From: Candidatus Peregrinibacteria bacterium | GTDB taxonomy: Bacteria; Patescibacteriota; Gracilibacteria; UBA1369; UBA12473 | Direction: 5' to 3' | DNA: 54,283 nt | Assembly (NCBI GenBank): GCA_018659585.1 | Contig: JABJMC010000035.1 | Coordinates: 1 to 54,283, forward strand | Shown: positions 28,639 through 54,235 of the stretch, piece by piece | Layout: each line of letters opens with the position of its first letter | How positions within the stretch are numbered: position 1 is the stretch's first letter | Translations under genes and position numbers: made by a program | Notes under the pieces: generated by a model | Databases searched by the model: none | The model's input: only the letters and a program-made list of their open reading frames with translations | Told to the model about the DNA's origin: nothing

Positions 28639-31600
28639 ATGGAAGAATCTCACCGTTTTATTTTCCAACACAAACCGCGGCCACCCAAGCCGCGGCCGCC
28701 CGGACCCAAACCAAAACCACCTCTTCCAACAATAGAGTCAGAGCCAATCGCGCAATCTTGCTCGGCTTCTCTCGAAGACATCCGCGCCGAAATTGAATCC
28801 GAAGAAGTCATTCCTTGGCAGAAGAAAGCTATTTTAGGTGAAGTTTTGACTTGCCAATTACAAAGCGGCGACCAAGAAGCCATCGACAAAACTATTGCCA
28901 TGATCGAACAGGTTTTTTGCATTCCAGAGCAACTCCGCATCCTTGATGAATTAGGAGTTACTTTGCCAGAAACTCCCCCCGAGCAACCAGACCCCACTAG
29001 GCTTGAAGAATTAAACCAAAAAATTGCCATTTTAGAAGAAGCTTCCCAGTTGGATGCGATTGAAGAACGCTTTAGATATTTAATGGAATTTCAAACCCCA
29101 GAAGTAGCGCATAAAATCATCGAAGAGCTTACAACAACGCCCTTTGGGCTAAATTATCAATTACAAATCGAAGGACAAGTCCACATTATAGAATCTTTGT
29201 TTGCGAGCGCGGAACCAGAAAACATTCGCCTCGCTTATTTAATGTACCAACAATCTCAGCAAAGCCCCCTCCGAAATCAAACAGTTTTCCCTGATATGCC
29301 TTGGCTCCAGTTCAGAGCTTTTTGGCCTGACTATCAAACTTCCGGCCAACCCGAACCAGAAGAAAAATGGATGATTCCAATTGGGAAAAGATTGGAAGCA
29401 ATTGGTCCAAAATTAGAAGAAGCTTATACAGCTCTTCAAAAATATTCTTTAGATATAGCCATCTCATCATATAATTTAGACGCCCTCCCCGAAGAAGAAA
29501 AAGAATTAATAAAAAATAGATCACAAAAACAACGAGCTGCCGTTGCGCTATACAAAGATTTTGAAGTAGACGGTGATGGGTCAACAGGTGATTCCACAAA
29601 TTTGCATATTGATGATCAAGAAATGGCCGTTATTAATCATGATGCAAAAAGCGCAACAGCTATTGAAAGATTATTTTTAATTCAACACCGAGGTAACACA
29701 ACAGGTTATGATTATTTATCAACGGATGAAGCTTATTATGAGCAATATTTAATCAGTAAAAGCGACCGCTCTTATAGCTCCCACGGCTCTCCTCAAGTCC
29801 GTATTAGCCAACGCCAAGAAATGTTAACGTTTTTAAATGTTCGAGGAGCAGCCTTAGATCCCGCCCTCCGTGCTCGTATTTACATTGATTTAGGCACCAA
29901 TTATTTGCATAAAAAAATTCGAGAACGCGACCCAGAACTTGGCGAACAATTTTTAACACAAGCCATTACTATTCTGGAAAATTATGAAGACGCTGGCAAT
30001 TGGCATTTCAGAAGCACTTCTCCAGAACAAATGCTAGGATACGCTCATTATCGCCGCGCTGCGCTATACATTGAACAAGAAAAATCTCATGAAGAAATAA
30101 CTAAAGAGTTTCAAAAAGCAATCGCCATCGCACCCGAAGGAGATTTTGAAAAAGAAGACAATTTTGACATCATATTTGACGCTTACGTTGACTATATTTT
30201 AGGCCAAGCAAATGGAGTTCAAGAATTGCTAGGCGCTTGTGATGAATATCAAAAAACATATCTTGAAGGAGAGCCCTCTGAAGAAAGATATTCCTACAAT
30301 CAACTTCTCGCTAAGCATTTAGTTAGAGCTAGAATTCGGTGTATTAATATTTTAATGGGAGAAAAATCTTACGAAGAAGCCAAGCAAATAATTAATAAAA
30401 TGAAAGAGAATGCCTATTTTAAGCCATATCTTGAGGGGCCATTGGAAGCCTCGTCTTATAGCGATCGGGATGATAAAACTCGATTCCCGCATGACGACTA
30501 TTTACCACTTCTTATAGAGCATTTAGACTTTCTTAGCTCTCATCTTCAAGAAGGCGGCGGAGATGGCGCAGAGAATTCCGAAATGCGTCGTTATCTAGCA
30601 ATAACAGATGGATTTGCAATCCCAGGAGGAGAAACCGAAAATGATGTAATGAGGAGATATGCCAATTCTCCCGTTGTTGGCGTTGAATATGATGACATTA
30701 TGGCTGGCGGACCAAGCGCAATTTATCTTTTAAGGCGCAACCCTGCTGACTGGAAACTACTTCAGGCTCGTCTCTACGACACTTATTCGCCTGCTGGTCA
30801 GCAAAAACCGGAATTAGCTCTATATGATTACATGGATGCCCTAAGAATGACGGGAATTCCTACTAGATCTACAGTTGCGGGCCGTAGAAAAGAAGATCCG
30901 GATGCTCTTCACTTATTAGGCAACCAAGATATGGCCGAGGCGGTGGCCCGCTGTTATTTTTTATTAAATAGCCCTACTCAATATTCAGTTAGCGATTTTG
31001 GCATTGATTGGTTAGATGCCCGCGCTGGAACAGTCGGAGAACCTTTAGAATTTAATACCGAAAAAAAGGAAGCCTATATCGAAAACGCTTCAAGTAATTT
31101 ACGTGTTTTATATTACGACGACGAAACAAATATGGGAATCGCAGTTAACAGATATATTAACATGCCTTTAATGATGCCTGGGACAGTCCAAGATTTAAGT
31201 GAAGAATGGCAATCATTACGTCAACAACGAAGAGAATTAGACCCAGAAACCGATGCTGATGAGTTAGAACAAATAGAAGCCAGAATCGGAGAAATTAAAA
31301 AAGATCTAAGGCCAGACGAAGTAGGTTACATGTATTGGATTGCAAAAAACGACGAAACTTCTGAGCTCGAGGTGAATCAATTTCCAATAAATAATAATGC
31401 AATCTTCCAATGGGAAGAAATGGATAACCCAGAAGCACTCGGAATAGAAGATCTTAGCCTCCCCTCTAGAACTAACCCAGCAAACAAAAGCGATTTAGGT
31501 AATGGCTGGCACACCTTGGTGGACACAGATTATTTAAATAGCGATGCTTTATATCTAACCGATGATTTAGAAATTGTGGAACAAGGCTTCACTGAATATA

Positions 31601-31653
31601 TTGAAGGTCCGGGTTACGATGATTTCCCCGAAGACCCTGCTTTTGATCGTTAA
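28639..31653 (+). CDS. Giant hypothetical protein with TPR-like helices, 1004 aa
   Basis: I do not recognise a family. After a Pro-rich basic segment (KPRPPKPRPPGPKPKPPLP-like, residues 12-32), the protein is largely helical. From about residue 400 to 600, short helix pairs such as LGTNYLHKKIRERDPELGEQ and YRRAALYIEQEKSHEEITKE resemble tetratricopeptide repeats, though spacing is irregular. From about 640 onward it is mixed alpha/beta. No signal peptide or membrane segment is seen. The gene has its own promoter. Its stop shares a TTAA with the convergent queG. It could be a scaffold or adaptor, but no function can be assigned. Confidence 0.72.
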   Translation: MEESHRFIFQHKPRPPKPRPPGPKPKPPLPTIESEPIAQSCSASLEDIRAEIESEEVIPWQKKAILGEVLTCQLQSGDQEAIDKTIAMIEQVFCIPEQLRILDELGVTLPETPPEQPDPTRLEELNQKIAILEEASQLDAIEERFRYLMEFQTPEVAHKIIEELTTTPFGLNYQLQIEGQVHIIESLFASAEPENIRLAYLMYQQSQQSPLRNQTVFPDMPWLQFRAFWPDYQTSGQPEPEEKWMIPIGKRLEAIGPKLEEAYTALQKYSLDIAISSYNLDALPEEEKELIKNRSQKQRAAVALYKDFEVDGDGSTGDSTNLHIDDQEMAVINHDAKSATAIERLFLIQHRGNTTGYDYLSTDEAYYEQYLISKSDRSYSSHGSPQVRISQRQEMLTFLNVRGAALDPALRARIYIDLGTNYLHKKIRERDPELGEQFLTQAITILENYEDAGNWHFRSTSPEQMLGYAHYRRAALYIEQEKSHEEITKEFQKAIAIAPEGDFEKEDNFDIIFDAYVDYILGQANGVQELLGACDEYQKTYLEGEPSEERYSYNQLLAKHLVRARIRCINILMGEKSYEEAKQIINKMKENAYFKPYLEGPLEASSYSDRDDKTRFPHDDYLPLLIEHLDFLSSHLQEGGGDGAENSEMRRYLAITDGFAIPGGETENDVMRRYANSPVVGVEYDDIMAGGPSAIYLLRRNPADWKLLQARLYDTYSPAGQQKPELALYDYMDALRMTGIPTRSTVAGRRKEDPDALHLLGNQDMAEAVARCYFLLNSPTQYSVSDFGIDWLDARAGTVGEPLEFNTEKKEAYIENASSNLRVLYYDDETNMGIAVNRYINMPLMMPGTVQDLSEEWQSLRQQRRELDPETDADELEQIEARIGEIKKDLRPDEVGYMYWIAKNDETSELEVNQFPINNNAIFQWEEMDNPEALGIEDLSLPSRTNPANKSDLGNGWHTLVDTDYLNSDALYLTDDLEIVEQGFTEYIEGPGYDDFPEDPAFDR

Positions 31654-32985: not shown

Positions 32986-35900
32986 ATGCCCCCAGATAGA
33001 CCTACCCAAATTTCTGACGATTCCGAGGCCGGACGCGCTCTCGAGTGGATCGATGAGTTAGAGGAAAAAAAGGAGACAGAAGGACTTCTTACCGAAATTG
33101 ATTTACAAGGAACAGAAGAAATAAGCTTTAGTGTAGAAAAAAGCTTTACCGAAAGTCTCAGTCGATCTCTTTGGGGGGAACCAAGAGGGGGAAATGAAAA
33201 ATCCAAATATGCTCAGCTTCCAGCTGCGCAAAAAAATATTGTACTTAATGTGTGGCTAATGCTGGCGCACCAAGGGATAAGCCCAGCAAAAGCACAACAA
33301 GGTGATCAATGGGCTTTTAATTTTGACACGACCCCACCGACTTATAATTTTAAACCTAGAAAAGGAGGAGAATTAATCGGACAAGTAGGAAGCCTTGAGT
33401 GGCCAGAGCGTCGACAAGCTTTAGAGGATGCTCATAACGTCCTCGGTGAATTCGCCACCGAAGAAGCTCAACAACTTGATTTAAGTGTTCCTAACCCTTA
33501 TGACCGCTCCGAATTAGATGTCGCCACCAGTCCAGGACGCAGTATTATGGATGCTTTCCAGGCTTTTGAACGTCGTGATTTAGCAACTCATTCTGCTCGG
33601 ACTGCTTATATCACCGGTCAAATCAAAGGAGATGCTCTATGGAAAGAAGCTCTTCAAGAAGAACGTATCGGAATTAATAAATGGCTTCATGAACTTTATG
33701 GTGCTGATGCAGCGGCTAACGAATCCCTTGATCCTGATGATGGATATGGTTACACCGGTTCAGCCAAACAAAATATCGCTTGGGTTAACTATCTTCGTTA
33801 TGATGTTTTAAATATTCCAGATTCACCCGAAGAAAAAGAAACTCGCGAAGCACAAGCTAAAAAAATCGAAGAACTGGACGCTGCTTTAAGCGCCAGTTTA
33901 ATCAGTGCTCTTCAAAAAGAATTTGGCGCTGATGTAACAAGTTCTATTCGCAGCACCGCCCACCTAGCTAATTTCGAATTCACTCCTAATGAAGAAGGCA
34001 GTGAAACAGGAAGGTGGACCCAACAAGTAATTTACTCTTTTACTAGCTTAATTGATCGCCCTGGAGCTCAAACCACTCGTCGTCGGGCAACTTATAATGT
34101 TACTAGTTTAGGAACTTTTGAAGAGGCTTTTACGCTTGAGGCCGATGCTTCTGCTATGAAAAGGCTTCTTCTGGAAGAACCAGTTGCCGGCGAACCAAAC
34201 AACCAAGAATTTATCCAAGGCATTCTTGACGCTGAACAAAACGAACGTGAGTATGCCTCTGACCCAGAAGGCGAACGTGATAAATTTGGACAAGCTGAAA
34301 GAGACTCAATTGCAGAAGAGATGGAAGAATATTTTGACTTCCTTGAAGCTAATACTTATCGCAAATTTAATCCTGATGTAAATATTACTTGGGGCAAACA
34401 AGGCCCACTTGGCAAGCGCGAACGATTTGTGCGCGTTGAGTGGGATCAAGCTGATGATGGAATTAGTGAGCTCGAGCAAGTTGCTATGGAAGCCACTATT
34501 CCAATGAAGCCTCTTTCTACTTGGAAAGGGCAATGGGACGAAATGTTAGTTGCTTTCCAAGATGAGCTAGATGCTCACAAAAGGGATGCAACAGGAGTAG
34601 CAAGAGCTCGCCAGGAAGTTAGTGATAGATATGATGCTGACCATGTAAGAGGAGAAATAAATCAAGAAGCTAGAGAGCAAAGAGAATATGAAACAGCAAC
34701 CACTTCTTTAGATGAAGGGGAAGAATTTCTTGCCGCTGACAAAACTCGAAAAGCTCAAAAAGCCCTTACTCGCGCCTTTGATGCCATTGGCTATCTTGAA
34801 TTAGGCGAAGAAACAGAAGAGCTTCGTGCTCTTATGGTCCGCGAAAAGGCTTTAAGAGAAGCCATTTACGGTACTCCAATCCAAGAATTCACTGCCGATG
34901 ATATGGGCGAGATGGATTTTGATGCTCCAGAATTAGCTTCCACAAGGATTGGACGCGAACAAGCTGAGGCTGAGGCGTTATTTGAACGAGCCGAACGATT
35001 TGCTGCTGACCTTAAGACAGCCTTAGAGGCCGCTTTACAAGAAGTCCACGGAGACGGTGTTGGAGGTGTTATAAATGTAGAAGTTATGATCGACAGAAAA
35101 ACTGGCGAACTAGTTACTTATATTACAGACAATCAAGACGCAAGTAGAAGGATGATTTTTAAATGGAGGTTATCCGCTATCCCAGAAGATTATACTGAAG
35201 ACAATGTTAATGAGCTTGCCATTAAGTTTGCCGAGCATGACACAGAAGGTAGTTCTCGAGGAACACAAGACTTTATTGTTGACACAATAAGCTTGCACCA
35301 AGCCGCTCGCGAAGCTGATAAAGCCGTTCTCTTAGAACGTGCCGAAGAAATGGCTGCGGAATTAAAACCAGCCTTAGAAGCTAGGATGCGAGAGGCTTAT
35401 GGCCCTAGCATTTTGGATCATGTGAGGATTGAGGTTGTAGTGAATAGTGAAGATATGAACATTCAGGCTCGCGTTTATGTTATAGACAGTCAAGATCCTA
35501 ATAATTTTGTTTGGATTAACGCTCCTATAGAAGCATTAATTGAATCTAGCACGACTATTGAATCTAGCACTCACAGCATTGTTAATGCCCCTGAAATCAA
35601 TGGATTTATTGTACGAACCATCGAACAGCGCGAACAAGCAGAGGTCGCTCGTCTCGATGAAATAGAGTCTGCCCGTTTAGCTGCCGAACAAGCAGCGGCC
35701 GCCCGGCTCGATGAAGCCGAAGCCGCCCGTTCAGCTGCCGAGCAAAGCGCTCTTGAAAGCGAAAGAAATGCTACCCTTCACGCCGACAAACTCTCTTCTT
35801 TAAGAGAGTTTGGCTCTCAATCTATTGAAGACCCAAGTTTAAACCCAGACCAAAAAGAAGCTGTTCAAGCTTCTATCTATATGTTTTCCATAACCGCAGC

Positions 35901-37191
35901 GGACTATATTAGGGGAGGCGAGGAGCCTGGTCAGGCCCTTAGCGACGCCAGAGACGCCATCCAGAACTCACAACAATATTTCAAAGCTTTAGACCCAGCT
36001 AGTAAAGCAGTCGTTATAGGCGCCATAGGTTCTTATATTTATATCAGTGGGACTTCCCAGGAAGGCTTAGCCCCTGATGTAGAAGGTGCCCTTGAGACTT
36101 TAGCCGGCCAAGCTGAAGCTGAAATCAGAAAACAAATGGTCGAACGATATGGAGAGGATGTTTTTGATTTATTTGTGCCACACGTAGAAGTAAACACAGA
36201 AGAAGAACCTCCAACATTAGTGCTTACTTACGAAGATTTATTTAATGGCACAACAGATTTAAGAATAGAAGGCCCCGCCACAGGAGCAGAGCCACAAGCT
36301 TTAGCTGCTGCCGCTTTAGATACTTCCAAAGGGCAAGTTCAATACATAGAATCAATTATAAGTAATCGCGAAAGAGCCAGGACTCAAATTCAAGAAAACG
36401 GTGCTGATTTTTTGCAATTTGAATTAGATGCCTTAGAAGGCCATGAAGGAGTATGTAAATATGCAAAAATAGACATTAAACCCGAACAAATTAGTATAGT
36501 CCCATCAGGAATTAATAGTAAATGGCTAATCAGTGTAGATTATTCTTTTACAAATTTAGCTACTCAATCTGAAATTTATCTCCGACAGCCTTTCGAGGTT
36601 TTTTCTTGGGGTACAGGCGTAGCTCATAAAAAATTCGCAAAGGCTGTAGCCAAAGGAATTGGGTCCGAAGCGCCAGAATACAAAGAACAAAATAAATTTT
36701 TAAGAAAAGCCATCCGCCAAGGGAAAGCCGCTGAACGTCGAGAAGAATTAACTGGATCTTTAGATTTAGGCCATAAAGCACAAGAGAAAATTTGGAAAGA
36801 CGTGAAATCCTTTATAGAAAATCCAGCCGCTATCAACGCTAAATATCTAGAACTTTTACGCGAAGAAAGAGCTAAAGGAAGTCGTGAGGGTGAGCTTGAC
36901 AGAAGTGATTACACCAGTCTGTATAACGACGCTTTAATGAAAATGCTTGAAAGTCGTGGGTACGAAGCAAACGGCATTGGCTACCCCAAATTTGTAGTTC
37001 GAGTTGGTAGGCAAGAATTTCAGTTTAAATGTAGCGTAAACACACCTCGGATTGGAGCTGACGACGGTTTATTAATAGATTCTGGCCCAGACCCTCGAAG
37101 GGGTGATGGCCCAAAGTATATAGATTTTACAATGTATGACAGGCTTGGGAGTCCTTTATCAAGGAAGACAAGCCTTCGACGCATGCTCTAA
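32986..37191 (+). CDS. Giant hypothetical protein with internal repeats, 1401 aa
   Basis: I do not recognise a family. The protein is strongly acidic, mostly helical, with beta segments. Two adjacent modules align by eye: one near residues 665-790 (RAERFAADLKTALEAALQEV ... DFIVDTISLHQAA) and one near 783-890 (RAEEMAAELKPALEARMREA ... GFIVRTIEQREQA). Weaker copies of the helix-then-strand pattern appear near residues 298-400, 1040-1135 and at the C-terminus. Between them, ARLAAEQAAAARLDEAEAAR-like Ala/Glu/Arg-rich sequence is probably coiled coil. It starts MPPDRPTQ, like the 1159-aa protein (MPPDTPS). No signal peptide or membrane helix is seen. A good promoter precedes it. Repetition suggests a fibrous or scaffold protein. 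Confidence 0.74.
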   Translation: MPPDRPTQISDDSEAGRALEWIDELEEKKETEGLLTEIDLQGTEEISFSVEKSFTESLSRSLWGEPRGGNEKSKYAQLPAAQKNIVLNVWLMLAHQGISPAKAQQGDQWAFNFDTTPPTYNFKPRKGGELIGQVGSLEWPERRQALEDAHNVLGEFATEEAQQLDLSVPNPYDRSELDVATSPGRSIMDAFQAFERRDLATHSARTAYITGQIKGDALWKEALQEERIGINKWLHELYGADAAANESLDPDDGYGYTGSAKQNIAWVNYLRYDVLNIPDSPEEKETREAQAKKIEELDAALSASLISALQKEFGADVTSSIRSTAHLANFEFTPNEEGSETGRWTQQVIYSFTSLIDRPGAQTTRRRATYNVTSLGTFEEAFTLEADASAMKRLLLEEPVAGEPNNQEFIQGILDAEQNEREYASDPEGERDKFGQAERDSIAEEMEEYFDFLEANTYRKFNPDVNITWGKQGPLGKRERFVRVEWDQADDGISELEQVAMEATIPMKPLSTWKGQWDEMLVAFQDELDAHKRDATGVARARQEVSDRYDADHVRGEINQEAREQREYETATTSLDEGEEFLAADKTRKAQKALTRAFDAIGYLELGEETEELRALMVREKALREAIYGTPIQEFTADDMGEMDFDAPELASTRIGREQAEAEALFERAERFAADLKTALEAALQEVHGDGVGGVINVEVMIDRKTGELVTYITDNQDASRRMIFKWRLSAIPEDYTEDNVNELAIKFAEHDTEGSSRGTQDFIVDTISLHQAAREADKAVLLERAEEMAAELKPALEARMREAYGPSILDHVRIEVVVNSEDMNIQARVYVIDSQDPNNFVWINAPIEALIESSTTIESSTHSIVNAPEINGFIVRTIEQREQAEVARLDEIESARLAAEQAAAARLDEAEAARSAAEQSALESERNATLHADKLSSLREFGSQSIEDPSLNPDQKEAVQASIYMFSITAADYIRGGEEPGQALSDARDAIQNSQQYFKALDPASKAVVIGAIGSYIYISGTSQEGLAPDVEGALETLAGQAEAEIRKQMVERYGEDVFDLFVPHVEVNTEEEPPTLVLTYEDLFNGTTDLRIEGPATGAEPQALAAAALDTSKGQVQYIESIISNRERARTQIQENGADFLQFELDALEGHEGVCKYAKIDIKPEQISIVPSGINSKWLISVDYSFTNLATQSEIYLRQPFEVFSWGTGVAHKKFAKAVAKGIGSEAPEYKEQNKFLRKAIRQGKAAERREELTGSLDLGHKAQEKIWKDVKSFIENPAAINAKYLELLREERAKGSREGELDRSDYTSLYNDALMKMLESRGYEANGIGYPKFVVRVGRQEFQFKCSVNTPRIGADDGLLIDSGPDPRRGDGPKYIDFTMYDRLGSPLSRKTSLRRML

Positions 37192-43108: not shown

Positions 43109-43136
43109 TTGCAAATTGAAGTCAATGGTATATTTT
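43109..43136 (+). promoter_or_regulatory. Promoter of the VanW gene, leaderless
   Basis: TTGCAA at 43109-43114, a 16-nt spacer, TATTTT at 43131-43136, then exactly 6 nt to ATG 43143. Confidence 0.45.
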
Positions 43137-43142
43137 ACATTT

Positions 43143-44939
43143 ATGGCAAAGCCCAAAATCACAAAAAACTATTTTCTCTCTCTCACTTTTTTAGGAGTGT
43201 TGGTTGGGAGTACAGCCATGGGTTTTGGGGTGCAGTACACCTTAGCCGGCAAGGTTGCTCCTGGTACTTTTGCGGCCAACACCAATATTAGTTTTCAGGA
43301 TGCCGAGCAAGCCCAGGAGGATTTAAGTGCTTTTTTGGATGAATTTGAGGAAGGCTCAATTGATATTGTTTATAAAAATAGCATGTATCGGTTTGGGTTA
43401 GACGACCTTGGCCTCACGTTATTAAAGACAGACACAGTGGAATCAATACCTGTTATTAAGCCAGTTGCTTCACTTTTATCGATTGATGATACGGTTTTGG
43501 GTGGCAAAGAAATTGGAGCACAGTTTGATTTTGATCAGGAGCAAATGGAAGCTAATTTAGCTGCCAAAATTATTAACTTAAATGTAGCGGCCGAAGAGCC
43601 GCGTATTACCTGGAATTCTGCTTTAGAAGATTTCGAATTTACCGAGGAACAGACTGGCTGGGAAGCAGATTTAGATGGGTTTACGAGCCAGTTAACTACG
43701 CAAATTACCGCTTTTAACTTAGATTCAATCGAAATTACGGCTAATGAGTTAATTCCCAGTGTTACCAAGGCGGAATTAGAAGCTCAAAAAGATGATTTAA
43801 CAGATCAGTTAACCCAAAACATAGACATTTTCACAGAGGAAGAAAATTGGGAAATTAATTGGCTTCAAAACTTACATTTATTAGATTTTGAGCCGGTTTA
43901 CGATCCTATAAAAGGCCCTTTAATTGACGTTCAAGTAGACCAAGATTTAATGCAACAACATTTAGAGCAGTACATTGCCCCAAAAGTTGAAATCGCGGCC
44001 GAAGAAGTCACAATTTTAGTCGCTGATGATGGACATATTTCTTTTGATGGCACGGCTGTTCACGGGCTTGGTATCGACTACACAACTTTTTATGAATACT
44101 TAAATTACGCCTTAAATAACGGGTTAGCACGGGTCGAAATCCCAATTGCCCAAACCCAAGCCAAAGTCTATGTCCCAGCTGAACTCCGAGAGCTCGGAAT
44201 CACAGAATTAGTGGCCGATGGCTATTCCAGTTTTTATGGTTCGCCGTACAATCGTATTCACAATATTAGAACCGCAATTGAACGGTTTGATGGGGTTTTA
44301 ATTGCGCCAGGAGAAATGTTTTCTTTTGGTGATCAATTAGGTGTAGTAGATGGTTCAACAGGTTACGCTAAGGAGTTGGTAATCAAAGAGGGCGAAACCC
44401 TACCAGAATACGGAGGAGGAATTTGCCAAGTTTCATCAACTTTATTTAGAGCAATTATGTTTGGGGGCTTCCCAATTAATGAACGAAGAGCGCATTCTTA
44501 CGCGGTTTCCTATTATGCTTATCCGTTAGGTTGGGGCTTGGATGCCACGGTTTATCCCCCAGCTGTAGACCTTAAGTTTACTAATGACACCGAAAATCAC
44601 ATCCTTATGGAAGCCTATACAGATGGGTATTTAGCGACTTTCAAGTTTTATGGAACTAAAGATGGGCGCGCCGTCTCAACGGATGGGCCCTACATTAGCA
44701 ACCGTGCCGGCGCGCCCCCTGCCATCTACGAAGTAACTTCCGAACTCGCCCCTGGCGAAATCGAACAAGTCGATTCTGCTCATAGCGGCTTCACCGCCTC
44801 CTGGAACCGCCAAGTGACTTATCCCGTTGGCCACCATCTTTACCCTGATGGAGCCATTCAAGAAGAACCAATTATTAGCCCTTACACCCCCTGGCCCGCC
44901 AAATACTTAGTTGGCGAAGGGACCGAGGGGTATGAGTAG
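43143..44939 (+). CDS. VanW family protein with peptidoglycan-binding-like domain
   Basis: The 598-residue protein has an N-terminal membrane helix (YFLSLTFLGVLVGSTAMGFG), which acts as signal anchor. A long acidic region follows, partly fitting the PG_binding_4 domain that commonly precedes VanW. The VanW domain is near residues 360-510, with YSSFYGSPYNRIHNIRTAIE, IAPGEMFSFGDQLG, YGGGICQVSSTLFRAIMFGG and the AHSYAVSYYAYPLGWGLDAT segment. VanW proteins occur in vancomycin-resistance and other envelope contexts; the biochemical function is not settled. The track of in-frame starts includes TTG 43116, but ATG 43143 is favoured by promoter spacing. A glycopeptide-resistance cluster is not present. 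Confidence 0.88.
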   Translation: MAKPKITKNYFLSLTFLGVLVGSTAMGFGVQYTLAGKVAPGTFAANTNISFQDAEQAQEDLSAFLDEFEEGSIDIVYKNSMYRFGLDDLGLTLLKTDTVESIPVIKPVASLLSIDDTVLGGKEIGAQFDFDQEQMEANLAAKIINLNVAAEEPRITWNSALEDFEFTEEQTGWEADLDGFTSQLTTQITAFNLDSIEITANELIPSVTKAELEAQKDDLTDQLTQNIDIFTEEENWEINWLQNLHLLDFEPVYDPIKGPLIDVQVDQDLMQQHLEQYIAPKVEIAAEEVTILVADDGHISFDGTAVHGLGIDYTTFYEYLNYALNNGLARVEIPIAQTQAKVYVPAELRELGITELVADGYSSFYGSPYNRIHNIRTAIERFDGVLIAPGEMFSFGDQLGVVDGSTGYAKELVIKEGETLPEYGGGICQVSSTLFRAIMFGGFPINERRAHSYAVSYYAYPLGWGLDATVYPPAVDLKFTNDTENHILMEAYTDGYLATFKFYGTKDGRAVSTDGPYISNRAGAPPAIYEVTSELAPGEIEQVDSAHSGFTASWNRQVTYPVGHHLYPDGAIQEEPIISPYTPWPAKYLVGEGTEGYE

Positions 44940-45016: not shown

Positions 45017-48000
45017 ATGAAAACTTATCTAAATCTCTTGTTTTCTAAAAATATTGGCCCCTTTAAACCAAATCGGTTGGTATTTAAGGAAGCCCCAAAT
45101 CGTCATGATTATAAAAAAATTAATACTTACACGAACAAGGATCAGGAGGTTCATACAGAAAACTTAAGCGTTGAAATGAGAGAGTATAAAAGAGAGGTTG
45201 GTGGTATTAGTTACAATATCTATAAGGCCCTAGAGGATGATGAAAAATTTTCTAAAGAAACTAGTAAATCATATACTTACGAAATGCTTCATGCTATGGA
45301 TGAAAGCTTAGTTGCTAGCGGAGCAGAAAGCCCAGGAAGAACCGGGAAACTAGGAATTGATGCTTTAGAGTCTTATTTAGTTCAACAGAAAGTAGCTCAA
45401 TTCGCGATTATGAACGGATTAATCTATTTTTATAATGATGAAGACGTAGAAATCATGTCTTTACCGATTATTTCTAGCCGGCAAGCAGCCTTAAGGGATA
45501 GTTTTTACGAGCAACGCCAAGGGGTTTTAGAAGAAGATGCCCAGCAAAGGCAAGATTTAAGGGCTGAGTTAAATGATGACGGCGAACCACCAATTGACAT
45601 GGAAAGAGATCAAATTGAATACACTTCCCCAGACGACAGCTTGGCTGTTCAAATCGACTTGCCAAGAGTTGCTCGTCCTCAATTTTCAATGCCTGATAAT
45701 TTTTGGATTCAGCAGGGTGTGGCCCCAGAAAAATTGGCCTCAAAATTTAAAAGATCGGCCCAATGTTCCGGTTACGTTAAATTACGTTTAGCCGATGAAA
45801 TCGGACAACAAGGTTTGGAATATTATAATTTAGACGACAGCACCGAAGCTTGGGCTTGGAAAGGAATTTTAAATGCCCAACCTGAAAAATTTGAACAAGT
45901 GGTCAATTTAAGCCATTACATGGCTATGGACCAAGACACTATTTATCCGATCGACACAGACACGAGTCAGTATGTTTCTGATTTAAATTCTATCTGGGAC
46001 GGCATGGACGAGGCCGATGCTGCCGGTGGCCAAACTGTGATGACCGTTTTTTGGAAAGGATCGGGCTACAAGGGCCAAGTTGCCGAATATAACAGTCAGC
46101 TTACTCCTGAAGAGCGTAGCTTAAATACTCACATTGTTTATTTAGAAGGACGCGATTATCGTCCTATTACCGCCGCTCCTCTTTGGCGCGAAGAGTTAAC
46201 CTCTTATCTTGTTCGAAACCTAGAAATTACCTCCGGCCAAAAAGGTCTTTTGGCCAACACTGAGGTCCGGGTTGAAGATCGTGATTGTGTGTTTGAGGGT
46301 GGATATTTTGTGGATGCCGAAACAAAAGAACCAGTTTACTTAAAACACGGCCAAAAGGTTAAGTTTAAAGATTTTTGGTTTTCACATCATTTTCACGGCG
46401 CCGGTTTAATAAGTTTAACCGAGCTGGCTGGGCAAGACCAGTTTGTTCCAGTTGAAGCCTACCGTTTAATTCCCGAAGAGTTAGAAGAACCACGCTTTGC
46501 CGCCCCTGCCGCCCCAGAACTTCAACCGATAAGTCATTTTTATTTGGAGTCAGGCGGAAACGTTAGAGACTCTTTTATTAGCTACATGAAAACACAGAAA
46601 CAAGTAGAAGTAACAGATACAATGTGGGAAAATTATCGCTGGTATTTAACTTTAGTTGGGTTCAATCCTTCTTCAGTTGAAGCTGAAGTAGACGCGGTTC
46701 CAATTCCAGATTTTAATCAGCTAGCTATCTATATCACTGAGCAAGATGGATGGAGTGGATTAAGATACAAAGAAGTTCAAGCGCAGTGTTCAGAATATAA
46801 CGCCACACATCCCACGGAACACCTAGTCTTTATTCCAAAAGGAGAAGGCAACACTTATATTGGACCTTGGCAGTTAGCAGCTTCATTATTTGAAGAGCTT
46901 GATCCTCAACCTAATCGCCGTGAAAAAGCTTATATCTTAGGCGAAATAGATCGTTTAAATAGCACTCTTGATTTAAGGGTAAATCCTAATAACCAAGCTC
47001 ATTACCGCTGGGAAAGTGGGAGCTATTTTTGGTTAAATGACGATGCTATAGAAGCTATTATTCATAATGTTCGTCGCGAACGTGTCTTAACTCAAATTTA
47101 CGTCCCCCCAACCTTGGTCGTTGGTCAGATGGAGGGTGGTACTAAGCTTGTTGAGATTACTCCTCACGAAAGACAAGTAATTGAATCGGCCACCAATGAT
47201 CCTACCATTCGCACTCTTTTAATTTTAATCCTTCTTAATGAACAAAAAGGAGGAGGAAATCGAAAAGCTTTGGCTGAAGCTGCTGATAAAGTACCATTCA
47301 TTAGTGAGCGATCAGTCGGATTATTTCAGATTGAACCTACTAGAATAGACAGAGAGCGCTTAGAAAAGGAAGGCACTAATTTTGAAACCGTAGAAGATTT
47401 ACGCGTAGCTTTAATTACAGATGATGATTTGAATGCTAAAATTGCAGTTTGGCGCCTTCGGGATGCACAGAATTCTTACCAAGCTTTATTAGACGAAAAT
47501 AATGAAACAGATTATTCAATTATTGATAAAAATTTCATTACCGGAGTTCTAACTTATTACAACCGAAGTCCTTTAAATATGTACGCTGGTATGTTTGGGG
47601 TTATGGGAAACCGAGTCGCCGAACATTTTGGTTTAGAGCTTAGATGTAGCGATTATGAAAAAAAACCAGACAAGCGCTATCACCCCATGGTAAACATGGT
47701 TGCTGATAAAGGTTTAGACTTAGTAAATGAAGGATACGAATTCTTATATGAAAAAGGAATAAATGCAAGAAAAGGACGGTGGGACTGGCAACTTGTTCCA
47801 GCAGAACAAGTTCTTGGGTGGGACAGGGAAGGAATTAGCGAGTTTTGGAAATCCCTAGCTAGAAATTTAGTAGCCCAAGGCAAAATAGATCTTTCTGAGG
47901 AAGAAATAAGCCGAGACGTTAAATTAATCGACGGGCATCCTTACAACTTCTTAAACAGCCCTCTTTATACAGCTGTTAAAGGAACTTACGAAACAGACGC

Positions 48001-49312
48001 AGGAGAAGCTCTTTCTTTGTTAATTAGAGACGAAGAATATCCCACTACCGCTGTCCAAAACTATGGTTATCGTGTTACTCGCTACGAGCAAATTGATAAC
48101 ATAGATGAGTATTCTTTTTACATTGCAGAAGAAGATGCTCTAGCTCAAGACTTACAGGATCCAATAGATTTAAAAAAAATTAATAGCATTCGTTCTCGAG
48201 CGGGCATAGGCACTATGTTGATAGAAATAGACGATGAAATGGTGGAAATGCAATCCTTTTTTAAAGAAGGAGAACCTTTCCGTGTTGAATTAACTGAACA
48301 AGAAAAAGAAAGTCTTCCTGAAGTCAACGAAAATGGGCTAATCAGTATTTTATTAACTGGAGCTAGGGCAACTGGTAGCGGAGTTGGTCTTACTGATACT
48401 AACAAACAAATCTTAATTAATCCTAGAACTTGGGACGTCGTAGTAGTTGATTTACCACGCGACTTAAAAGTCCGATACACTAACAAGCAAAACGCCCCCC
48501 AAACCTCTCGATTAAATAGTGTTCGCAATAATGGAGGCCAAGAAGCCCTTATGGATGTCGTGGCTGAGATTACCGGTCAGGAAGTAGTTCATACTTTTGA
48601 TGTTTCTTTTGAAGATACGATTGAAATTATGGATGAATTACTTCCTTTAATTGGTGGCTTAGAAATAAATGATCCACAAGGAAACAGTTATGTTGGAAGA
48701 TATGTCAGTGAGCATAAAGGGAATCAATACTTCCCTGCTCACACCGTTATTAATAGTGGTCAAGAAGCCCTAGCTTATACTCGTTTCCGTAAGGGGTGGG
48801 TTGTTAATGATTCCTATGATCCTTCAATTATTGATGAAAACGGAGATCCAGTTAACCCTAGATCAATTGAAGGAACACCTTTAGATGGGAGCAATACTCA
48901 TCGCACGGAACGTCAAAATCTATTGCTGACTGCTTTTTATCGACAAGCAGCCAATAGAGAAAATTTACCAAAATTAATACCCAAAATGATTGAGATCTGG
49001 ACTAGAGTTGATACCAATGCCGGAGTTATGGAGCAGGCTCAATACATAAGTGTCGCTGAAGCTATGGCGAGCCAAGTTAGAAGCGGTGCCGCTTTAAGGG
49101 AAAAAATAGCCGCTGTTGGCAGCACTGGAAAAATCGAGCCAATTGAAGTTCCAGGAATTGGCTACCGAGGAGAAACACTTGTACATGACTCTGTTTATAT
49201 TAATGGCATTAATGCCGCCTTTGAGGAGGGTTTAATAGATGCTCTGACTTCTAATGATCAACCAGGAACAGAAGACTCTGGGGATCCTCTAATAACTACT
49301 GACGAACTTTAA
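45017..49312 (+). CDS. Multidomain wall-active protein with LysM-like, transglycosylase-like and LCP domains, 1431 aa
   Basis: The 1431-residue protein has no visible signal peptide. Two segments look LysM-like: near residue 340 (VFWKGSGYKGQVAEYNSQLT ... HIVYLEG) and near 575 (GWSGLRYKEVQAQCSEYNAT ... LVFIPKGEGN). About 726-875 resembles a lysozyme-like fold: LLILILLNEQKGGG gives a candidate catalytic Glu, then SVGLFQIEPTRI and ITGVLTYYNRSP. About 1105-1325 is an LCP (LytR-CpsA-Psr) domain: SILLTGARATGS, TDTNKQILINP, VVVDLPRDLKV, PLIGGLEIND, ALAYTRFRKG and HRTERQNLLL. LCP enzymes attach glycans to peptidoglycan. Normally such proteins have an N-terminal membrane helix; none is seen here. The next gene starts 2 nt downstream, and the GH3-VanY fusion follows, so this is an operon. 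Confidence 0.78.
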   Translation: MKTYLNLLFSKNIGPFKPNRLVFKEAPNRHDYKKINTYTNKDQEVHTENLSVEMREYKREVGGISYNIYKALEDDEKFSKETSKSYTYEMLHAMDESLVASGAESPGRTGKLGIDALESYLVQQKVAQFAIMNGLIYFYNDEDVEIMSLPIISSRQAALRDSFYEQRQGVLEEDAQQRQDLRAELNDDGEPPIDMERDQIEYTSPDDSLAVQIDLPRVARPQFSMPDNFWIQQGVAPEKLASKFKRSAQCSGYVKLRLADEIGQQGLEYYNLDDSTEAWAWKGILNAQPEKFEQVVNLSHYMAMDQDTIYPIDTDTSQYVSDLNSIWDGMDEADAAGGQTVMTVFWKGSGYKGQVAEYNSQLTPEERSLNTHIVYLEGRDYRPITAAPLWREELTSYLVRNLEITSGQKGLLANTEVRVEDRDCVFEGGYFVDAETKEPVYLKHGQKVKFKDFWFSHHFHGAGLISLTELAGQDQFVPVEAYRLIPEELEEPRFAAPAAPELQPISHFYLESGGNVRDSFISYMKTQKQVEVTDTMWENYRWYLTLVGFNPSSVEAEVDAVPIPDFNQLAIYITEQDGWSGLRYKEVQAQCSEYNATHPTEHLVFIPKGEGNTYIGPWQLAASLFEELDPQPNRREKAYILGEIDRLNSTLDLRVNPNNQAHYRWESGSYFWLNDDAIEAIIHNVRRERVLTQIYVPPTLVVGQMEGGTKLVEITPHERQVIESATNDPTIRTLLILILLNEQKGGGNRKALAEAADKVPFISERSVGLFQIEPTRIDRERLEKEGTNFETVEDLRVALITDDDLNAKIAVWRLRDAQNSYQALLDENNETDYSIIDKNFITGVLTYYNRSPLNMYAGMFGVMGNRVAEHFGLELRCSDYEKKPDKRYHPMVNMVADKGLDLVNEGYEFLYEKGINARKGRWDWQLVPAEQVLGWDREGISEFWKSLARNLVAQGKIDLSEEEISRDVKLIDGHPYNFLNSPLYTAVKGTYETDAGEALSLLIRDEEYPTTAVQNYGYRVTRYEQIDNIDEYSFYIAEEDALAQDLQDPIDLKKINSIRSRAGIGTMLIEIDDEMVEMQSFFKEGEPFRVELTEQEKESLPEVNENGLISILLTGARATGSGVGLTDTNKQILINPRTWDVVVVDLPRDLKVRYTNKQNAPQTSRLNSVRNNGGQEALMDVVAEITGQEVVHTFDVSFEDTIEIMDELLPLIGGLEINDPQGNSYVGRYVSEHKGNQYFPAHTVINSGQEALAYTRFRKGWVVNDSYDPSIIDENGDPVNPRSIEGTPLDGSNTHRTERQNLLLTAFYRQAANRENLPKLIPKMIEIWTRVDTNAGVMEQAQYISVAEAMASQVRSGAALREKIAAVGSTGKIEPIEVPGIGYRGETLVHDSVYINGINAAFEEGLIDALTSNDQPGTEDSGDPLITTDEL

Positions 49313-49314
49313 AA

Positions 49315-49605
49315 ATGAATCAAACAAATATTAAACAATTCAAAAATTTAGTTGTCACTAGTTTGGTTTTACCTAAAAAAATTAAACTAGATCTTTTAAA
49401 AATTGCTGACAAATTACCACCAGCTGCTTTAGAAAGATTTATTGAACATCTACAAAACTCTAAAGAAGTCACTCTTAAAAATATTAAAGAAATAGCTAAA
49501 AAAGATCCGCAAAAACTAAAACCTCTATTAAAAGGAGTTAAAAAAATTCAAAAAAATAAAACTCAAATTCTTTCCAAAATTAAAAGAAAATCTATCAAAA
49601 AATAA
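49315..49605 (+). CDS. Small Lys-rich protein, related to the 7479 protein
   Basis: The 96-residue protein is very basic, with Lys making up more than a fifth of it, and no recognised domain. LVVTSLVLPKKIKLDLLKIA followed by DKLPPAALERFIEHLQNSKE aligns by eye with LVNTSVAIQSLPQGLQGKLV and MPEEKQIQAVQALQKE of the 7479-7874 protein. The rest is Lys-rich helix (KPLLKGVKKIQKNKTQILSK). Both lie beside a giant gene: there before it, here after. The start is 2 nt past the 1431-aa stop, and the next gene begins 1 nt after its own stop. It may be a cofactor of the operon or bind acidic surfaces or RNA. Confidence 0.65.
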   Translation: MNQTNIKQFKNLVVTSLVLPKKIKLDLLKIADKLPPAALERFIEHLQNSKEVTLKNIKEIAKKDPQKLKPLLKGVKKIQKNKTQILSKIKRKSIKK

Positions 49606-49606
49606 T

Positions 49607-51931
49607 ATGGCATTTGAAGATATTACTAAAAAAATTAGAAATCCCGAAGATTTTTGCGAAGAAGGCGAATTATCAGAAATTGAAGATTGGGATTTTTATG
49701 CCGAGGATTTAATTTATCAAATTGAAGAAGGGTATTTTTCTTTAGAAGAAGAATTAACAGAAATTCTTGGTGGGGAAGAAGCCCAAGAAGTATTAAATAA
49801 TTATTTAGACGAAATAGAAACAATAATTACAGAAGGTATTGAGGAAGATTTATTTTGTTGCGAAGATTTTATGCTAGACGAAGTAAGGGCAATTTATTTT
49901 AATTATTTAATTTATGCTAGCAATGGAAATATTTTTTCAATTGAAGAGCTACCTTTAAAGACAAGACTAGGGCAAATGTTTCTTATGACTCAATATGAAT
50001 CAAAGGCTGAGAGGGCTTTAGCGCTAGATCGACATAAAGAATATGCTGAAATAGGTGCTTACCATGTTTATTATTATGACGCAGAATCCTTAGAAGAGGC
50101 CAAGCAAACAACAGGGGCCCTAAATGAGAGATTAACAATCCCTCCACTCATTAGTTATGATTTTGAGGGAGGCTTAGTAAGGCCCATAAAAATGACAATG
50201 GAGGATATTGAGGGATATGATTTTCCAGATAGGTTTAAAGAGCTAATTACTGCTAAAGTCTTAAACCCTCCAGCTTTTCGCCACGATACTTTGGACTTAA
50301 TTCCACAATACGTAGAAGATTTATTTGCTTCTGAATGGGTGGCTTTCCCTTCTCAGGAACAAATTGGAAGGCTTTATACAAAGGTCAAAGATGACCCCGA
50401 AGAAAAAACAATTTTCCTTCAAGAGTACAAACAATACGCCCGCTGTATTGGAGAAATTTGTCGTGATGTCGGGATTAGTATTAATTTTGCTCCAAATCTT
50501 GATTTAGTTCCTGATATTGATAGTGATAATCCAATTTCTCGCATGGGAAGATCTTATAGTGATGACGCAAGTGATATTACTGCTTTAGCTTTAGCCTACA
50601 TTGAAGGTTTTCAGGAAGTAGAGGGTGTCACAATTATTCCAAAACACTATGTGGGAGTAGGTTTTACACTTCATGATTTACATCATGGATCAGCTGGTTT
50701 TGAGGGTTTTTCAGAAGATTTATACGAGTCAAAACAAATTTATCAAGATATTCATAATCAATTAAATGGGTTTATGACTACTCATCTAGTAACCGAAATG
50801 GATCCAGTTCATCCAGTGACCACTTCAAGTGACACTATTGATGACATTCGATCTTGGGGTTTTGATGGGGTTTTAATGTCTGACGATTTAACTATGGGAG
50901 CCATAACAACACGTTATAAAAGAGATTCTTATGACATCCCTTACATTGATAGTGATGGTGAAGATCAATTTTTTGAAGTGTCCAAGGAAGTAATGGCCGT
51001 AATAGACACTATTTCTGCTGGGCATGACATAGTTTTTTATAACGATGCTGTAGGAAAATTAGATGAAATAATAGATGGGTTAGTGAAAATGATTAAATAT
51101 AAAGTTGATCGTGATGGCGATGGAGAGCCAGATTTAACCGAGGCAAGAATTAATAAATCCGTAGAAAGACTTTTGGACTTAAAAAGTAGCCTAGGCTTAA
51201 TCGGTAGCGCAGAAGCTGGCGAGTGTTCTTATTACTATATTCCAGCTGAAGAATCACAAGAAATTGAGTTCCAAATAAGCTGGTTTGAAAAAGCAGTTTT
51301 AACAAAAATTAAATCACAAATTAAATTGCAAATGCAATTAAGAGAAAAAGAAGATCCTTTAAATGGACAAACAATTACAGTTGAAGAAGTCATGGCGTAC
51401 TTAACATCTAGTGAGCAAGAGTTAATAAAGAGAATTCTAGACATAAACCCTGCTATTTTAGGATTCCCGGGACCTTACACACCAGATGAAAAAATGTCAG
51501 AAGTGGTGACTATCGAAGGATCAGAAATTGTACTTTTGACCCCCAAAGTCAGAGAAGCTTTTCTAGATTTAAATAGTGCCTACGAAAAAGAAACTGGCAA
51601 GAGAATGGAAGTTGTATCTGGACATAGAGGTTCAGGTTATCAATTATTCTTATTTCTTTGGAACTTAATTGACAATGAGTTTGATGTTAATGCGACCGCT
51701 GAAAAAGTTGCCCTCCCCCACTACAGTGAACATCAAGCCGTTGAGCATATGGCCTTAGATGTAAGAGTAGAAGGCGAAGATATGCATGATTTTGGCGACT
51801 CAGACGCTTATCAGTGGATGCTAGAGCGCGCTCATGAATATGGTTTTACATTATCTTATCCAGAAGGGAATTCAGATGGAATTCAATTTGAACCATGGCA
51901 TTGGCGTTTTGATGGCATTGACGAGACTTAA
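49607..51931 (+). CDS. Glycoside hydrolase family 3 fused to VanY-type D,D-carboxypeptidase
   Basis: The 774-residue protein joins two wall hydrolase domains. Residues about 118-530 are GH3, NagZ-like: LISYDFEGGLVRPI, SINFAPNLDLVPD, NPISRMGRSYSDD, IIPKHYVGVGFTLHDLHHGS (the His region) and GVLMSDDLTMGAIT with the catalytic Asp. NagZ-type enzymes release N-acetylglucosamine from wall fragments. About 642-773 is the M15B VanY fold: VVSGHRGSGYQLFLFLWNLI, YSEHQAVEHMALDV (His and Asp zinc ligands, with two extra residues between them) and IQFEPWHWRFDG. The N-terminal 115 residues are acidic and helical with no signal peptide. It is the last gene of the operon. Because no export signal is visible, it may recycle wall fragments in the cytoplasm. 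Confidence 0.88.
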   Translation: MAFEDITKKIRNPEDFCEEGELSEIEDWDFYAEDLIYQIEEGYFSLEEELTEILGGEEAQEVLNNYLDEIETIITEGIEEDLFCCEDFMLDEVRAIYFNYLIYASNGNIFSIEELPLKTRLGQMFLMTQYESKAERALALDRHKEYAEIGAYHVYYYDAESLEEAKQTTGALNERLTIPPLISYDFEGGLVRPIKMTMEDIEGYDFPDRFKELITAKVLNPPAFRHDTLDLIPQYVEDLFASEWVAFPSQEQIGRLYTKVKDDPEEKTIFLQEYKQYARCIGEICRDVGISINFAPNLDLVPDIDSDNPISRMGRSYSDDASDITALALAYIEGFQEVEGVTIIPKHYVGVGFTLHDLHHGSAGFEGFSEDLYESKQIYQDIHNQLNGFMTTHLVTEMDPVHPVTTSSDTIDDIRSWGFDGVLMSDDLTMGAITTRYKRDSYDIPYIDSDGEDQFFEVSKEVMAVIDTISAGHDIVFYNDAVGKLDEIIDGLVKMIKYKVDRDGDGEPDLTEARINKSVERLLDLKSSLGLIGSAEAGECSYYYIPAEESQEIEFQISWFEKAVLTKIKSQIKLQMQLREKEDPLNGQTITVEEVMAYLTSSEQELIKRILDINPAILGFPGPYTPDEKMSEVVTIEGSEIVLLTPKVREAFLDLNSAYEKETGKRMEVVSGHRGSGYQLFLFLWNLIDNEFDVNATAEKVALPHYSEHQAVEHMALDVRVEGEDMHDFGDSDAYQWMLERAHEYGFTLSYPEGNSDGIQFEPWHWRFDGIDET

Positions 51932-51961
51932 TTGACACTCCCCTCTTTAACAGGATAAACT
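51932..51961 (+). promoter_or_regulatory. Promoter of the T4SS-type ATPase gene
   Basis: TTGACA at 51932-51937 (perfect), an 18-nt spacer and TAAACT at 51956-51961. It starts immediately after the stop of the GH3-VanY gene. Confidence 0.6.
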
Positions 51962-51985: not shown

Positions 51986-54235
51986 ATGACTCAAAAACAG
52001 CATCTCCTATTAGTTAAAATTCCGCCTGGTAAAAACGAAGAAGCAAGTTTTGAACAAATGCTTGAGAATATTTACGAAACAATGAACAATGCTTCGGTGG
52101 CTTTTGAGGTGGTCTCCATGCACCAGCACATTTATTTTTACGTGCGCGTGGCCACTCGTGTTAAGCATTTAATCGAAGGACAACTTTATGGCCAGTACCC
52201 AGATGCTGAGATTTTTGAAGTTAAAGATTATGTAAAACCAGAAGAACTTAACGCTGCCAACAAAGGTTTTGCTTGTGCTGAAATCGTTTTGGAACGCAGT
52301 GATATTTATCCGATAAAAAATTATCACCAATTCGAAGGAGACTCTTTAGCCGGGATTTTTTCCGTGCTTTCTAAAGGGGGAGATGGTGAGGAAATTTGGA
52401 TCCAAGTAGTTGGTAAGCCGATGCAAGATAATTGGCAGCTCAACTTTAAGCGTCGCGTCAAAATGCGTGTTTTAAGTTTAAAAAATATTTTTCGTTTAGG
52501 TGATTATTTAAAATTAAAAGGAAAAACCGCGCTTCGTGCCTCTGAAAAAGAAGAGTTCAACAAAAAAGCTGATAAAAATTCTTACAACACTAATATTCGA
52601 GTGGCTTATATCGCCAAAACCCAAGGTGAAGCTGACATGAAAATCGAATCTGTTAAACGCGCTTTTCAGCAATTCAATACCACTGACTACAACTCACTCA
52701 AAGGTATAAAAGTTGGGCGCAACGCTTTTCTTCGCAAATACCAAGAAGGAACTTTAGACGGAGGCGTGTTATTTACCACCGAGGAACTAGCCACGCTTTA
52801 TCACTTCCCAGAACCAGACACCGTCCCCCATATTGTGCACGTGGTTTCTCGTAAAAAAGAACCACCAGAGAGTCTTCCCAAAGACGGTAATGTTCCCCCC
52901 AACGAGTTATCAGTTTTTGCGGCCACTAATTACCACAACCAGAACATCCGTTTTGGGATTAAACGAATTGACCGCCGCCGCCATCTCTACGTGGTTGGAA
53001 AAAGTGGTACTGGTAAATCCAAAATGTTGGAGCTACTTATTAACGCTGACATTCAAGCTGGGAAAGGAGTTGGAGTCTTAGATCCACACGGAGACTTAGT
53101 TGATAATATTCTTAAATACATTCCCGAACATCGGATTGATGATGTGATTCTTTTTGATCCGGGAGATGTGGATTATCCGATTGCTTTTAACCCGTTAGCT
53201 GGGGTTGAGCCAGCTTACCGAATTCGTGTAACCATTGGTTTTGTCGAGATTTTCAAAAAATTATTTGGAGCCAACTGGACGCCGCGTTTAGAGCACGTCC
53301 TTCGTTATACGACACTCGCTCTTCTCGATACTCCCAACACCACTGTGCTTTCTATTCTCAAAATGCTATCCGACAAAAACTATCGTCAGAAAGTGGTGGC
53401 AAATATTGAAGATTCGGTTATTAAGAATTTCTGGGTAAATGAATTTGCTGGCTGGAGCGAAAAATTCGACAATGAAGCTATTATGCCGCTCCTCAACAAA
53501 GTGGGACAATTTGTGTCCACTAATTTGATTAGAAATATTGTTGGCCAAGCTGAAAACAAAATCGACATTCGCGACATCATGGATAACCAAAAGATTCTTT
53601 TAATGAAAATTTCCAAAGGTAAATTAGGGGAAGAAAACTGTGGATTAATTGGGGCTATGATGGTCACCAAAATCCAACAAGCCGCCATGCAACGCTCTGA
53701 TACGCCCGAAGAATTACGAAAAGATTTTTACCTTTACTGTGACGAGTTTCAATATTTTGCTACCCAAACTTTTGCTGAAATTTTGTCTGAAGCGCGTAAA
53801 TATCGTTTAAATTTAACCATGGCTCACCAGTACATGGGACAGCTTTCTGATCTGGTTAAAACTACGGTATTTGGGAATGTTGGTTCTATTATTAATTTCC
53901 GTGTTGGCGCCGAAGACGCTGTTATGCTGGAAAAGGAATACACTCCAAAATTCGAAGTTCGCGATATTATTAATCTTGGTGTTCGAGAATTATATTTAAA
54001 AATGTCTGTTGATGGTGAAATTAAAGATGCTTTTTCTGGACGCACAGTTGACGTGCCAGTTGTGACTAATGATTTCACTGAGCAAATCATTGCGGCTTCT
54101 CGTCGTAAATATTGCAGCCCGCGATCCGAAGTTGAACAAACCTTAAAAGCCTGGCAAGAAAACGCTTCAGCTGAACCAGACGAAGATAGCGGGCCACAAG
54201 CTGGCGAAGAAAAATTCGCTACCCCAATTGTTTAA
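51986..54235 (+). CDS. Type IV secretion/conjugation-type ATPase (TraG/TrwB-like, DUF87)
   Basis: The 749-residue protein has a Walker A motif, LYVVGKSGTGKSKMLELLIN, near residue 338, followed by GVGVLDPHGDLVDNILKYIP. The Walker B is FYLYCDEFQYF near residue 580. RKYRLNLTMAHQYMGQL resembles the arginine-bearing region that follows it in TraD/TraG and HerA relatives. Residues 1-300 form an unknown N-terminal domain with alternating beta and helix. No membrane helix is seen. Patescibacteria commonly encode this protein alongside T4SS-like pilin genes, where it probably powers DNA or protein transfer or uptake; the pilin-like gene here is 35 kb away. Its own promoter precedes it. Confidence 0.88.
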   Translation: MTQKQHLLLVKIPPGKNEEASFEQMLENIYETMNNASVAFEVVSMHQHIYFYVRVATRVKHLIEGQLYGQYPDAEIFEVKDYVKPEELNAANKGFACAEIVLERSDIYPIKNYHQFEGDSLAGIFSVLSKGGDGEEIWIQVVGKPMQDNWQLNFKRRVKMRVLSLKNIFRLGDYLKLKGKTALRASEKEEFNKKADKNSYNTNIRVAYIAKTQGEADMKIESVKRAFQQFNTTDYNSLKGIKVGRNAFLRKYQEGTLDGGVLFTTEELATLYHFPEPDTVPHIVHVVSRKKEPPESLPKDGNVPPNELSVFAATNYHNQNIRFGIKRIDRRRHLYVVGKSGTGKSKMLELLINADIQAGKGVGVLDPHGDLVDNILKYIPEHRIDDVILFDPGDVDYPIAFNPLAGVEPAYRIRVTIGFVEIFKKLFGANWTPRLEHVLRYTTLALLDTPNTTVLSILKMLSDKNYRQKVVANIEDSVIKNFWVNEFAGWSEKFDNEAIMPLLNKVGQFVSTNLIRNIVGQAENKIDIRDIMDNQKILLMKISKGKLGEENCGLIGAMMVTKIQQAAMQRSDTPEELRKDFYLYCDEFQYFATQTFAEILSEARKYRLNLTMAHQYMGQLSDLVKTTVFGNVGSIINFRVGAEDAVMLEKEYTPKFEVRDIINLGVRELYLKMSVDGEIKDAFSGRTVDVPVVTNDFTEQIIAASRRKYCSPRSEVEQTLKAWQENASAEPDEDSGPQAGEEKFATPIV

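Follow-up and report, generated by a model that had tools for sequence, protein, structure and literature searches.

Two products of a three-gene cluster, ORF1-ORF2-ORF3 (ORF, open reading frame), in a genome of Candidatus Peregrinibacteria (GTDB lineage Patescibacteriota; Gracilibacteria; UBA1369; UBA12473) have their closest described counterparts among cell wall enzymes that differ from them in how they are exported or arranged. The cluster lies on contig JABJMC010000035.1 of assembly GCA_018659585.1, whose positions 1 to 54,283 were analysed and are here called the window. The active site of LytR-CpsA-Psr (LCP) enzymes acts on lipid-linked polymers outside the membrane. With LCP transferases such as TagU (6uf6), ORF1 has in common the PF03816 domain and its Asp, PRD and YxRxR residues, but it is without an N-terminal anchor and its LCP domain comes after some 1,100 residues of other domains in the same chain. 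ORF3 has the Pfam domains and the catalytic motifs both of NagZ-type GH3 enzymes and of VanY/LdcB (M15B) carboxypeptidases; in distinction to these it is one fused chain with no signal, whereas VanY homologues outside the order are nearly always signalled. In monoderm bacteria VirB1 proteins pair a transglycosylase with a Cys-His peptidase. A candidate arrangement of these two activities is shared by ORF1 with the VirB1/CwlT-type bifunctional hydrolases of monoderm type IV secretion systems (T4SS), from which it differs in domain order, in the absence of a signal and in having no conserved T4SS linkage, as judged for the VirD4-like neighbour. The pneumococcal LytA is likewise a wall hydrolase without a signal peptide, and it does reach the wall (PMC12029793); the cluster proteins have unrelated domains, no choline-binding repeats were noticed in them, and their translocation is only proposed here. 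The three genes are:

45017..49312, + strand, ORF1: multi-domain wall protein of 1431 amino acids, without signal peptide or membrane helix
49315..49605, + strand, ORF2: Lys-rich helical protein of 96 amino acids, no clear homologue
49607..51931, + strand, ORF3: GH3-VanY fusion of 774 amino acids, without signal

An initial annotation, made from the letters of the DNA alone, had described a tightly packed operon whose three products show neither a signal peptide nor a membrane helix. The packing is as described, with gaps of 2 nucleotides between ORF1 and ORF2 and 1 nucleotide between ORF2 and ORF3. The lack of signals was confirmed by a Kyte-Doolittle scan, in which neither a signal peptide nor a membrane helix was detected in ORF1, ORF2 or ORF3; export signals were judged throughout by hydrophobicity and not by a trained predictor. 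The maxima for the N-terminal 12-mer and the whole-protein 18-mer were 0.65 and 1.27 for ORF1, 1.47 and 1.02 for ORF2, and 0.62 and 1.06 for ORF3, compared with 2.24 for the VanW protein encoded upstream. Direct reading of the N-termini of the cluster proteins gave no twin-arginine signal either. No signal peptide is hidden by the choice of start, since the in-frame opening upstream of ORF1 is only 12 codons long and that upstream of ORF3, of 25 codons, contains no start codon.

The same lack of signals extends across the order, for which the genomes compared were mostly metagenome-assembled genomes. The core of ORF1 (residues 213-1066) has homologues in nine other genomes of the order, and all homologues examined (nine genomes, three further families) are without signals as well; a scan of genome contigs with ORF1 found no relative. 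An N-terminal membrane anchor is kept by seven of the eight LCP proteins encoded elsewhere in the order, which makes ORF1 an exception in its own family and its signal-less state more than a habit of the lineage. VanY proteins of the order were tallied where the N-terminus could be read, leaving out the small VanX-like ones: 16 had no signal, none had a clear one and four had a weak hydrophobic stretch and were scored as ambiguous; for two of the 16, in G025 and G014, the start was taken downstream of a hydrophobic leader, since the orthologue in G435 starts there. VanY proteins of other Patescibacteria carried a signal or anchor in 23 of 26 cases, a set from which L353 was excluded (wrong frame) and in which L345 was counted as signal-less though first scored as anchored. 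The difference is significant (P = 6e-9, or 3e-6 if the four ambiguous proteins are counted as anchored), with the caveat that divergence is greater among the VanY proteins of the order than among the controls, so that the former may be a different subfamily. Four small VanY proteins of 252-278 amino acids (L196-L199, from G033, G047, G443 and G041) have a helical-looking N-terminal part and no signal. Among 26 SLT proteins of the order whose N-terminus could be read, inspection by eye found about 15 without a signal. NlpC/P60 was not used as a further signal test, the matches of the order being mostly small proteins of uncertain location. The Tat route was ruled out, as no TatC was found in 89 genomes by a search which was positive in 11 of 14 control genomes. 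Some SLT proteins of the order (L385, L386, L393, L401) have twin-arginine-looking N-termini, e.g. SRRNFFRFAGAAV, in the absence of a detected TatC.

The exact order ORF1-ORF2-ORF3 was present in no other genome searched (89 genomes for ORF1 and ORF2, 59 for ORF3), so that a conserved three-gene operon is not supported. What recurs in the order is the architecture, that is adjacent signal-less wall enzymes. Genome G001 encodes two adjacent signal-less giants, the first with SLT, Amidase_2 and LysM domains and the second with YkuD, VanY and DUF1615, and in G006 a YkuD protein adjoins a DUF1615-VanY protein, neither having a signal. The finding of wall-active domains without export signals thus holds beyond this genome, while a conserved operon, and the export through a T4SS discussed below, found no such support.

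The regions of ORF1 considered here are:

45062..45085, + strand, N-terminal motif FKPNRLVF (residues 16-23), common to unrelated proteins of the order
45689..46306, + strand, candidate Cys-His peptidase/amidase (residues 225-430), Cys250 and His372, fold unconfirmed
46529..47041, + strand, LysM-like, two strand-helix-helix-strand units in the predicted secondary structure (residues 505-675)
47204..47596, + strand, transglycosylase-like (residues 730-860), Glu742 of NEQ, SVGLFQ and YNRS, no fold match
48392..48802, + strand, LCP domain PF03816 (residues 1126-1262), conserved LTDT, PRD, LNS and YTRFRK

Of the domains proposed for ORF1 by the initial annotation, the LCP domain is real. It matches PF03816 with E 3.8e-12 and 47.1 bits against a cut-off of 24.6, and its LTDT, PRD, LNS and YTRFRK residues match those of the membrane-anchored LCP proteins of the same order. 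In an alignment with five LCP proteins of the order and TagU, the active-site Asp, PRD and YxRxR are kept, and by these sequence criteria the domain is genuine, with the usual active-site residues present. The lysozyme-like and LysM-like parts found no counterpart in Pfam or PDB, and what speaks for them are motifs and predicted secondary structure. The Cys250, Ser368, Asn370 and His372 residues are invariant across nine aligned sequences, which suggests a papain-like peptidase, NlpC/P60 and CHAP being the families compared, and is a lead only; the AlphaFold model of residues 1-540 had a predicted local distance difference test score (pLDDT) of 47 and no PDB match at E < 0.001. The two predicted strand-helix-helix-strand units would fit LysM, again as a lead, with pLDDT mostly of 58-80 and dips to 41-43, and LysM PF01476 had no Pfam match in ORF1. 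The motifs NEQ, SVGLFQ and YNRS align weakly, though in register, with those of SLT (GH23) transglycosylases (probability 12.6% and P 0.0023 by hhalign), and neither SLT nor DUF1615 was matched in Pfam. The model of residues 501-1081 (pLDDT 66) also had no PDB match at E < 0.001, and the profile of the ORF1 core against PDB and Pfam returned nothing credible. Structure prediction, which had been suggested as a check, yielded poor models of these parts and no match in the PDB, and the peptidase-, LysM- and transglycosylase-like assignments are tentative. A 1503-amino-acid homologue of ORF1 (L187:2580-7091) has a C-terminus which looks like a YkuD L,D-transpeptidase (SGGCIRMS) and not like LCP; because of this YkuD-like end, the C-terminal enzyme of ORF1-type scaffolds may have been swapped between lineages.

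The predicted fusion of GH3 and VanY in ORF3 was borne out, both Pfam domains being above the cut-off (PF00933 8.2e-24; VanY 2.7e-20) and the catalytic motifs being kept:

50423..51178, + strand, GH3 domain (ORF3 residues 273-524), nucleophile Asp in LMSDDL, KH motif
51536..51916, + strand, VanY domain (ORF3 residues 644-770), SEH...D and EPWHW metal/catalytic motif

The VanY/M15B motifs SxH...D and ExxH are present as SEHQAVEHMALD, with two extra residues, and EPWH. ORF2 is, as annotated, a small Lys-rich protein, helical and of 96 amino acids. As a conserved member of the cluster it was rejected, its best match (E 3e-4) being a Lys-rich helical protein without wall neighbours, and ORF2 is lineage-specific.

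Near their start ORF1 and two related giants have in common the sequence FxPxRL[IV][FY]. A DNA pattern for the wider motif FxPxR[LF][IVM][FY] was searched in a discovery set of 59 genomes and the matches were then read; among the 22 occurrences read in ORFs of at least 100 amino acids, 21 fall within the first 20 residues, some matches having been left unread, partly since their codons give Ser or a stop and not the motif. Thirty held-out genomes gave six proteins with the motif in the first 14 residues, one of which resembles a PIN-domain protein and could be a chance match; of the other matches in these genomes two are far from the start of short frames that are probably spurious, and the third is in a frame without a start. 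No internal copy was found in 54,000 residues. Elsewhere in the phylum it is about as frequent as its reversed control, and the motif was ruled out as a phylum-wide feature. The carriers are large and mostly without a known domain; those recognised, for the most part hydrolases of the wall or envelope, include LCP, SLT, amidase, VanY, YkuD, M23 (with a variant motif) and GDSL enzymes and one M17 aminopeptidase. The motif is present in 3 of about 43 wall enzymes and in none of 558 ORFs sampled regardless of the motif (P = 3e-4), the total of 43 being a hand count which includes some of the proteins that had first revealed the motif. It is rare, with few copies per genome in the two best-sampled genomes, and it is absent from ORF3, so that it was rejected as a tag by which wall enzymes in general are exported. 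A limited literature search, on which any claim of novelty rests, found no earlier description. Two further proteins of the window without known domains have related N-termini: a 1398-amino-acid protein (7867-12063) starts MFKENRRVFWEE, which comes close to the motif (score 12.9), and a 1004-amino-acid protein (28639-31653) starts MEESHRFIFQHKPRPPKPRPPGPKPKPP, which is a truncated motif followed by a proline-rich stretch.

We read ORF1 as a scaffold with an LCP glycopolymer transferase at its end and ORF3 as a glucosaminidase-carboxypeptidase fusion; both are among the large wall enzymes without signals that are typical of this order. Since an LCP enzyme that retains its active site has a task only outside the membrane, ORF1 would most simply be an exported protein. 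The cluster enzymes would leave the cell by a route which is neither Sec nor Tat and then act outside the membrane; FxPxR[LF][IVM][FY], which ORF1 and a few large proteins per genome have near the N-terminus, is the leading candidate for an address read by the export route or by a docking partner, and the motif-less ORF3 would travel with ORF1 or remain inside. Export, its route and the role of the motif are what we infer, and we give an even chance to the reading that the cluster enzymes, which are catalytically plausible, act outside the membrane after such transport, with the motif as a candidate sorting tag. The stronger version, in which the motif would be a signal for sorting or export that is peculiar to one order and so far undescribed, read by a machine other than Sec or Tat that moves very large enzymes, wall enzymes among them, out of the cell, we regard as possible though doubtful. 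Several points weigh against export. The export machine is hypothetical and the proposal is built on sequence; many signal-less wall enzymes have no motif (ORF3 and the f14 and f15 homologues of ORF1), which indicates that the motif is not needed for all of them; one carrier is an M17 aminopeptidase, a normally cytosolic enzyme, and most carriers have no known domain; and the overlap in the hand-counted wall enzymes bears on the enrichment given above. Legitimate cytoplasmic forms of GH3 and M15 enzymes also exist (NagZ and VanX). If export is correct, secretome predictions based on signal peptides miss much of the envelope biology of these uncultured bacteria of the candidate phyla radiation (CPR), and the short N-terminal motif is a concrete and testable handle on the route. 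If it is false, this would point to an unusual cytoplasmic economy of wall recycling.

In such recycling the substrates would be muropeptides, either imported or from turnover, which the enzymes would break down in the manner of NagZ, LdcA and AmpD of Gram-negatives, with ORF3 as a fused recycling enzyme. The two activities of GH3 and VanY are the ones this would need, no signal is present, and VanX-like proteins of about 215 amino acids in the order are ordinary cytosolic relatives; however, an LCP transferase whose active site is intact makes little sense in the cytosol, nor do the YkuD transpeptidase, LysM and SLT domains of sister proteins, and in the GH3 relatives G013 and G019 there is either a domain for peptidoglycan binding or a stretch of hydrophobic residues at the N-terminus. 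Action on wall fragments inside the cell is possible, most of all for ORF3, for which recycling is a serious rival to export; as an account of the whole cluster recycling is unlikely. Storage inside the cell and release by lysis, for which LytA is the precedent of a wall reached without a signal peptide (PMC12029793), or contact delivery to a host or prey, would direct the enzymes to foreign or sibling walls. Large size and several activities in one protein would suit attack, and a dependent lifestyle is presumed for Peregrinibacteria as CPR bacteria, but no holin, injection apparatus or immunity gene was noticed beside the cluster, where no search was aimed at them, and the T4SS-type VirD4 neighbour is not conserved; we consider this rather unlikely.

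The VirD4-like gene begins 54 nucleotides downstream of the cluster and had led the initial annotation to suggest export by the T4SS-type machine of Patescibacteria. This found no specific support: a recognisable wall operon stood beside a VirD4-like gene in none of the 16 neighbourhoods of its relatives, so that the linkage was rejected, the gene is common in the phylum, and in Gracilibacteria these VirD4 homologues are reported not to be linked to VirB4 (PMC12102498). The enzymes might instead be VirB1-type accessories which open the wall for a T4SS channel, given the candidate Cys-His peptidase and transglycosylase pair of ORF1, the VirD4-like gene downstream and the fact that patescibacterial VirB1 is often unlinked to VirB4 (PMC12102498). 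As such enzymes are normally exported by a signal, the VirD4 adjacency is not conserved and the folds of ORF1 are unconfirmed, this is very improbable. Loss of the signals through wrong starts, frameshifts or assembly errors is conceivable in metagenome assemblies, but with an in-frame stretch of only 12 codons upstream of ORF1 and with agreement among independent genomes of several families it is already nearly excluded.

The surroundings of the cluster are:

43116..44939, + strand, VanW protein, next gene upstream, whose N-terminus has the usual hydrophobic segment
44949..44977, + strand, promoter-like site TTGATT-17-TATAAT with TG before the -10, consensus match only, 40 nucleotides upstream of ORF1
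51986..54235, + strand, VirD4-like ATPase, next gene downstream, preceded by a separate promoter-like site (51932-51961), adjacency to the cluster not seen in relatives

The single strong promoter assigned to the cluster by the initial annotation is present as a site and is well placed, but such sites are no commoner in the region than by chance (19 matches, against 20.8 in shuffles). Elsewhere in the window two further giant ORFs of 1159 and 1401 amino acids (23813-27292 and 32986-37191) have no credible Pfam match and no membrane helix.

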